Assembly: GCF_902770715.1 (NCBI RefSeq)
Contig: NZ_CACXTS010000006.1
Location: 1 to 64,000, forward strand
DNA from: an uncultured Methanobrevibacter sp.
GTDB taxonomy: Archaea; Methanobacteriota; Methanobacteria; Methanobacteriales; Methanobacteriaceae
Length of the DNA stretch: 64,000 nucleotides
Direction: 5' to 3'
A model generated the notes under the pieces. It did not search any database. It saw nothing but the letters and a program-made list of their open reading frames with translations, and was not told the origin of the DNA. Position numbers and translations under genes: made by a program. Positions 40,515 through 41,772 of the stretch are shown here, in pieces. Every line of letters starts with the position of its first letter. The stretch's first letter is position 1.

Positions 40515-40580
40515 AGTATTACTTTTTTTAATTTTTATAATATTAATGTAATACTTTTTTATAAAAAAGTATTTATATAA
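40515..40580 (+). promoter_or_regulatory. Candidate promoter-operator with 24-bp palindrome
   Basis: An AGTATTACT box (40515-40523) and a GTAATACT box (40548-40555) have centres 32 bases apart. A perfect 24-bp palindrome (40550-40573) runs into a TTTATATAA TATA box at 40572-40580. The box layout echoes the repeats upstream of the metal ATPase. Confidence 0.5.
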
Positions 40581-40600
40581 TAAAAACAAATTATTATTTA

Positions 40601-40695
40601 GAGTTTGAAGTAACCTAATAGCTTAGCAATATTAAGACAACACGTAATACTATCTTTCAAATTTCCCTCTTTTTCTACTTCAAACTTTATTTTTA
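40601..40695 (+). ncRNA. Candidate small RNA A, closed by an 11-bp stem
   Basis: About 21 bases after the TATA box the sequence begins an 11-bp closing stem, AGTTTGAAGTA at 40602-40612 paired with TACTTCAAACT at 40676-40686, followed by a T-rich tract (40687-40700). The enclosed 63 bases include a pyrimidine-rich TTTCCCTCTTTTTCT. TATA spacing, the closing stem and the T-rich end fit one short transcript. No known family was recognised. Confidence 0.45.
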
Positions 40696-40897
40696 TTTAT
40701 TTATTCAATTTAACTTTATCAAGCAAATTTTATTAAAAATAATGGCATTTCAAGTCTTTAAAATTTGGTGTTTTATAATTTTTATAATTTTATTCATTTA
40801 TGTTAAAAAATATTGAATTAATTTTAAATTATGTTTAAATTTTTTATATATTTTTAAAAATTATAAATTCAAGTTTACTTTAATTTTTCTAAATTAT

Positions 40898-40922
40898 AGT
40901 AACATTTAAATACTATGTTACT
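40898..40922 (+). promoter_or_regulatory. TATA box framed by inverted repeat, candidate operator
   Basis: AGTAACAT (40898-40905) and ATGTTACT (40915-40922) form an 8-bp inverted repeat around TTTAAATA, a TATA-like element. A 16-bp palindrome TTACTTAATTAAGTAA (40918-40933) follows. Confidence 0.45.
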
Positions 40923-40929
40923 TAATTAA

Positions 40930-41047
40930 GTAATAGAGGTCCATAACATGATATCATGTTATTTACCATAAATTGATCATTATTTTTATATTCTCGAGAT
41001 GAGGCTAAAAAACATTTAGCTCATCTCACCTCCTATACGTTTTTTTA
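40930..41047 (+). ncRNA. Candidate small RNA B with 16S-tail-like sequence and terminator hairpin
   Basis: It contains GAGGT (40936-40940) and the 18-bp palindrome TAACATGATATCATGTTA (40943-40960). A 13-bp hairpin with one bulged G follows (40996-41009 with 41015-41027), then TCACCTCCT (41026-41034) and a T-run (41040-41046). TCACCTCCT equals the 3' end of archaeal 16S rRNA, so the RNA could pair with AGGAGGTGA ribosome sites. The start is predicted from the TATA element 25 bases upstream. Confidence 0.45.
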
Positions 41048-41082
41048 AAATTATTAAATACTTGTTTTATCTAACTATTATT

Positions 41083-41772
41083 ATGATTAAGAAAATTCCA
41101 GTTATAGATTTAAAACAACACCGGGCCGTAAGTGGAAAATCAGGAATGAGGGACACATACCAACCGTTAAGGACAGTTTTCGCCACATCTTCCAATCCCG
41201 TTGAAATAGCTCAGGGATTAAAATTAAACGGTGCGGATGAAATGTATATTGCTGATTTGGATTTGATTGAATCAGTAGGCCACAACATCAATGATGTTAA
41301 AATGGCAAATACAGTTTTGCCTGTTATGTTTGATGGTGGCGTTAAAAATTGTGAAGGCTTTGAATTCTTCCTGGACTATGCATTTAAAATAATCATTCCA
41401 ACCGAAACTCTTGAAAGCATTGAGGAAATGGAAAAGATATTCGATAAATATCCTAAGGAAAGAATTGTTGTCAGTGTCGATGTTAAAAACAATGAATTGT
41501 TGTCCAAGAATTTTGATATGAGCTTATCCGAATTTAAAGATGTCTTAAAAAGATTAGACCCTAATGAAATTATTCTTCTGGACATTACTGGTGTCGGCAC
41601 TGAAAAGGGATACAATAAAATGCTGCTTGAAGAGTTTGAAGAGTTGAAGGAAAAATTAATCATTGCCGGTGGTTTAAATAAAGACTCTTTAGGTGAGTTA
41701 GAGTCATTGGGTATAAAAAAAGTGTTGATAGGAACTAGCCTGCATTCAGGCGAAGTAAAACTTCTAGACTAG
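41083..41772 (+). CDS. HisA/HisF-like TIM-barrel protein (COG1411 type)
   Basis: The start was set at ATG 41083. A TTATTAAATA TATA-like element ends about 23 bases upstream and there is no ribosome site, so the mRNA may be leaderless. The 229-residue protein is related to ProFAR isomerase: IPVIDLKQHRAVSG, DEMYIADLDLIESVG, VMFDGGVKN, IIAGGLNKDSLGEL and IGTSLHSGEV (phosphate-binding ends). It lacks the full HisA pattern and belongs with the methanogen HisA-like proteins often linked to C1-carrier biosynthesis. The exact reaction is not known to me. It overlaps a small minus-strand gene by 9 bases at its 3' end. Confidence 0.8.
   Translation: MIKKIPVIDLKQHRAVSGKSGMRDTYQPLRTVFATSSNPVEIAQGLKLNGADEMYIADLDLIESVGHNINDVKMANTVLPVMFDGGVKNCEGFEFFLDYAFKIIIPTETLESIEEMEKIFDKYPKERIVVSVDVKNNELLSKNFDMSLSEFKDVLKRLDPNEIILLDITGVGTEKGYNKMLLEEFEELKEKLIIAGGLNKDSLGELESLGIKKVLIGTSLHSGEVKLLD

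Follow-up and report, generated by a model that had tools for sequence, protein, structure and literature searches.

A predicted structured small RNA gene with an anti-Shine-Dalgarno-like tail upstream of a HisA-like gene in Methanobrevibacter

The spacer in front of a HisA/HisF-family gene (TIGR00734) of an uncultured Methanobrevibacter sp. raises the question whether it holds a small RNA gene of its own and, if so, what such an RNA would do. The window, i.e., the whole stretch of DNA that was analysed, comprises 64 kb; the draft genome to which it belongs has a size of 2.1 Mb and is assigned to Methanobrevibacter as a broadly defined genus. On its other side the spacer is bounded by a block of genes encoding a KEOPS Pcc1-like protein, prefoldin beta, and a DUF3194-like protein; gene names given without a family call are our own reading. 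Based on sequence comparisons, we regard it as highly probable that the region represents an unannotated, independent, single-copy gene for a structured small RNA on the + strand. The predicted RNA of approximately 110 nt extends from 40934 to 41046 and is matched by a covariance model at 40932-41043 (99 bits), its 5' end near 40934 being deduced from the distance of the TATA box and its 3' end from the T-run. In 5' to 3' direction, the locus is composed of an upstream element, a BRE/TATA region, the start at about 40934, hairpin H1, a linker, hairpin H2, the tail (A)CCUCC(U), a T-run, and the TATA box of the HisA-like gene. A first-pass annotation of this DNA had proposed a small RNA gene that is independent, has a promoter of its own, and carries a CCUCC tail not included in the hairpins; the comparative evidence agrees with this proposal.

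Fifty-six Methanobrevibacter species carry the RNA at the same position; in 53 of them it was detected by the covariance model, which was built from 42 sequences, and in three by eye. The model matched 53 out of 67 genomes of the genus, once each except for a weak second match in one genome. With strict filters applied, it matched none of 72 genomes representing sixteen further genera of the family. An exact pattern search, the control of which gave no match, agrees with this picture, and a 176-base query of the stretch matched 59 of the 67 genomes, some of them through short promoter pieces only. Several genomes without an RNA match are also devoid of a close HisA-like gene, thus the RNA locus is probably missing from these assemblies. 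In the diverged species G025, G030, and G061, read by eye, promoter and H2 are kept and the linker or the tail is eroded. The named relatives in which the element was recovered are Methanobrevibacter MAGs, with the exception of a few bacteria that were matched by chance. In Rfam 15, no family scored at or above its gathering threshold at the locus, the sole match in the window being a tRNA elsewhere; with E values of up to 10 admitted, the highest-scoring match in this region (17.8 bits compared to a threshold of 62) is located on the wrong strand. The predicted RNA would constitute a genus-specific family of intergenic archaeal sRNAs without an Rfam match, and the features by which such sRNAs are recognised, i.e., a promoter and a terminator of their own, a conserved structure, and the lack of a conserved ORF, are all predicted for the locus. 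The weak second match (33.7 bits; G019:C182:1523-1614, minus strand) is possibly a diverged copy, a contamination, or a chance hit. Two candidate peptides were rejected: the 7-codon ORF beginning with the ATG at 40948 exists in this genome only, and those beginning with a minus-strand ATG in the linker complement end differently between species.

The putative core promoter AGTAACATTTAAATACT (40898-40914, + strand) corresponds to a BRE/TATA region with the consensus AGTAACATTTATATACTATG and an identity of 0.96. It is preceded on the same strand by a near-palindromic upstream promoter element, TTCAAGTTTACTTTAATTTTT (40868-40888), with an identity of 0.95 over 36 species, which reads TTCAAGTATACTTTAA in many species. 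In each of ten genomes, the best match to this element occurred only at the RNA locus, and a regulon sharing the element was rejected due to this uniqueness. Within the promoter, an inverted repeat formed by AGTAACAT (40898-40905) and ATGTTACT (40915-40922) flanks TTTAAATAC (40905-40913); its 3' half belongs to this genome only and is not conserved in relatives, and a 16-bp palindrome centred on CTTAATTAAG (40921-40930) is likewise peculiar to this genome. Repeated TAACAT/ATGTTA half-sites had been ascribed to a dedicated regulator, an idea that is not supported, since AGTAACATTTATATA is an ordinary BRE/TATA region, which these genomes also use in front of their tRNA and Lsm-L37e genes, and since the second half-site is unconserved. 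From this strong, tRNA-type promoter, transcription of the RNA gene would proceed to the T-run at 41040-41046 (+ strand), a presumed terminator recognised by direct reading, the length of which differs among species. As a side aspect, AGTAACATTTATATA is useful to locate other strong promoters in the genus.

Further conserved elements are situated on the + strand of the window. Just upstream of the small RNA, at 40560-40700, a second conserved RNA-like element shows a promoter, which comprises the inverted repeat AATACTTTTTTATAAAAAAGTATT plus a TATA box, and then a closing stem formed by GTTTGAAGTA and TACTTCAAAC, which encloses a long unpaired interior holding the conserved motif CTATCTTTCAAATTCCCTCTT; these features were read from an alignment of 19 loci, folded singly. 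Downstream of this element, a conserved block, CAATTTAACTTTATCAAG..ATTTTATTA, is located at 40700-40760.

The fold energy of the RNA stretch amounts to -27 kcal/mol compared to -12.6 for shuffled sequences (z = -5.2). H1 (40936-40968, + strand) is composed of a lower stem, in which GGT at 40938-40940 pairs with ACC at 40965-40967, and an upper stem within the palindrome ATAACATGATATCATGTTAT (40943-40962). All motifs listed in the first-pass annotation are present in the sequence, except that this second palindrome comprises 20 bp and not 18 bp. The arms of H1 co-evolve (P = 0.0016; 0 of 5000 permutations for the lower stem) in permutation tests without correction for relatedness, which favours apparent co-evolution. 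H2 (40996-41027, + strand), with the arms GAGATGAGGCTAAA (40996-41009) and TTTAGCTCATCTC (41015-41027), shows double-sided changes in 10 of its 11 pairs, 93 such changes altogether; 88% of cells are paired, and when its arms are exchanged between species, 6.7 kcal/mol are lost on average. The covariation of the whole structure exceeds that of all 500 shuffles and of all slid versions. G-U combinations outnumber A-C combinations by 75 to 17 in H2 and by 25 to 14 in H1, which indicates an RNA on the + strand. Over 36 species, mean pairwise identity decreases from the linker (0.97) and the tail (0.90) to H1 (0.72) and H2 (0.59), with 0.57 for the upstream spacer and 0.95, 0.96, and 0.61 for codon positions 1, 2, and 3 of the HisA-like gene as comparison. 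Since its identity is close to those of the spacer and the third codon position, the sequence of H2 changes as fast as neutral sites do. AT-rich DNA often contains short palindromes, and the two perfect ones at this locus occur in this genome alone, as would befit an AT-rich spacer that is not transcribed, with palindromes that arose by chance or a DNA site to which a protein binds; compensatory changes and a one-strand G-U excess are, however, properties of RNA, and H2 has kept its pairing at neutral sequence identity, so that we attach next to no probability to an untranscribed element. A C/D or H/ACA guide RNA was rejected as well, due to the missing Rfam match and because direct reading of the alignments revealed neither C and D boxes nor an ACA box just 3' of a hairpin.

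The RNA is always located upstream of the HisA-like gene or near it, which would be in line with a cis-acting leader or attenuator for this gene. The HisA-like gene, however, has a TATA box of its own, TTAAATAC (41055-41062, + strand), which is conserved as TTTAATACT/TTAAATACT with the same spacing in relatives, and its ATG at 41083 is located where a leaderless transcript would start, hence the gene is apparently leaderless. Moreover, in genome G023 an entire 92-codon ORF with its own Shine-Dalgarno sequence separates the intact RNA from the HisA-like gene. The inserted gene and the conserved TATA box argue against a leader or attenuator, which we consider very unlikely, and a riboswitch or attenuator leader was rejected on the same grounds. 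The ORF inserted in G023 (contig C71) apparently encodes a secretion-type N-terminus. Gene, strand, structure, constraint, and independence from the HisA-like gene are supported by the comparison of species.

Turning to the unpaired segments, the U-rich linker AAATTGATCATTATTTTT (40970-40987, + strand), with 17 almost invariant nt reading AATTGATCATTATTTTT, has a predicted mean unpaired probability of 0.72. The anti-Shine-Dalgarno-like tail ACCTCCT (41028-41034, + strand) has a mean unpaired probability of 0.65, being partly paired in many species in single-sequence folds. Constraint sits in the unpaired segments, as expected for a pairing RNA. The first-pass annotation had named the conservation of the tail segment and the hairpin in other Methanobrevibacter as a check and free variation of CCTCCT in close relatives as counter-evidence. 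CCTCC is present in 49 and CCTCCT in 47 of the 56 species, with a differing core in seven, H2 pairing is kept, and the tail identity of 0.90 stands against 0.57-0.61 at near-neutral sites; the tail does not vary freely, its altered forms in some relatives being TTCCTTC, TCTCTT, or ATTTCG. The interpretation of the tail as a copy of the 16S rRNA 3' end (GAUCACCUCC) has to be narrowed to the conserved CCUCC(U); the TC preceding CCUCC forms the last two pairs of H2. The 9-nt sequence TCACCTCCT at 41026-41034 is exact in only 25 of the 56 species, and its presence is within chance (0.19 expected in the window; found in 18 of 100 shuffles). An imitation of the 16S 3' end in two pieces, GAUCA of the linker and CCUCC of the tail, joined by H2 and serving as decoy for a factor by which the 3' end of 16S rRNA is matured or read, has in our view a very slim chance; against it, some relatives without CCUCC still hold GAUCA. 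The literature search revealed no paper that deals with archaeal Dim2 together with the 3' end of 16S rRNA.

It had also been suggested that GAGGT (40936-40940) pairs with ACCTC (41028-41032), so that the 5' end would hide the tail until a signal frees it. This pairing forms in the minimum-energy fold of this genome and can form in 88% of cells, but the 5' end and the tail of the same species pair no better than cross-species swaps (-5.27 versus -5.35 kcal/mol, P = 0.74), and the partner with which the 5' bases do co-evolve is the nearby 3' arm of H1. As relatedness would favour apparent co-evolution, its absence in case of the switch carries more weight. Pairing with the 5' end is not what keeps the tail conserved, and we regard such a switch as unlikely.

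Regarding function, we give roughly even chances to a new family of trans-acting archaeal sRNAs that likely pair with translation-start regions via linker and tail; transcription as such, trans pairing, the roles of tail and linker, and repression are inferences. In such an RNA, the two hairpins would flank the linker and leave the CCUCC tail, which would pair with Shine-Dalgarno sequences of the GGAGG/GAGGU type in mRNAs. The linker would add pairing or bind a chaperone such as Lsm, and translation of selected mRNAs might be blocked or tuned. Among 315 gene starts in a 400-kb sample of one relative, GGAGG and GAGGT were observed at 24-27 and AGGAGG at 7, an enrichment that is overstated because the starts were chosen with Shine-Dalgarno strength. 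Genes with full AGGAGGTGA sites, earlier put forward as targets, do not stand out, since AGGAGGT before ATG occurred at control level in seven genomes (277 versus 362 for the reversed pattern, a crude control). As complementary Shine-Dalgarno pieces occur at several percent of starts, the tail may contact a corresponding share of mRNAs, though weakly, and another part of the RNA, most simply the linker, must provide selectivity. Trans pairing is opposed by the poor selectivity of a tail of 5-6 nt, by the seven of 56 species without CCTCC, and by the partial pairing of the tail in single-sequence folds. Neither a search for the linker complement in the own genome, allowing 3 mismatches, nor a search with ATAATGATYAAT in two relatives revealed a target candidate. 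In the few match contexts examined, only the near-match AAAATGATTAAT is a gene start, and the exact matches are not.

As no target emerged from these simple searches for complements, the possibility that the linker has a protein partner has to be taken seriously. A protein-binding or scaffold RNA, in which linker and tail bind a protein (e.g., Lsm on the U-rich linker) without mRNA pairing, is a possible though less probable reading. It would fit the linker, which exceeds a usual seed in both length and invariance and for which no conserved complement was found elsewhere in the own genome and two relatives. On the other hand, constraint outside the linker is highest in the anti-Shine-Dalgarno-like CCUCC, and mRNA pairing is known for other archaeal sRNAs with a comparable architecture.

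Similar to the predicted RNA, sRNA162 of Methanosarcina mazei (191 nt, three stem-loops) is an intergenic methanogen sRNA with stem-loops and an unpaired linker, which masks a ribosome binding site (PMC3510493). The linker is, however, the most variable part of sRNA162 and the most conserved one of the Methanobrevibacter RNA, and the organisms are unrelated. In M. mazei, loop 2 of sRNA154 contains an anti-RBS sequence, and masking of ribosome sites is known for sRNA41 (PMC5867862); both share conservation at genus level with the candidate (PMC5867862), but have known targets and a link to nitrogen control (PMC5867862), and the CCUCC of the candidate is located in the 3' tail. A short C/U-rich sequence complementary to Shine-Dalgarno sequences is also known from Staphylococcus sRNAs of the RsaE/RNAIII type, which possess UCCC motifs in their seeds (PMC9217828). 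These RNAs are bacterial and a relationship is not expected; in contrast to them, the CCUCC of the candidate adjoins a T-run and a second invariant segment is present. In the literature searched, no Methanobrevibacter RNA of this kind was described.

Beyond Methanosarcina and the haloarchaea, little is known about archaeal regulatory RNAs. Members of Methanobrevibacter are methanogens of gut and rumen and thus relevant to methane emission and to the human gut. With a structure shared by almost the entire genus, a linker in which 17 bases hardly vary, and a tail resembling an anti-Shine-Dalgarno sequence, the predicted RNA represents a defined candidate for a translation regulator in these organisms.
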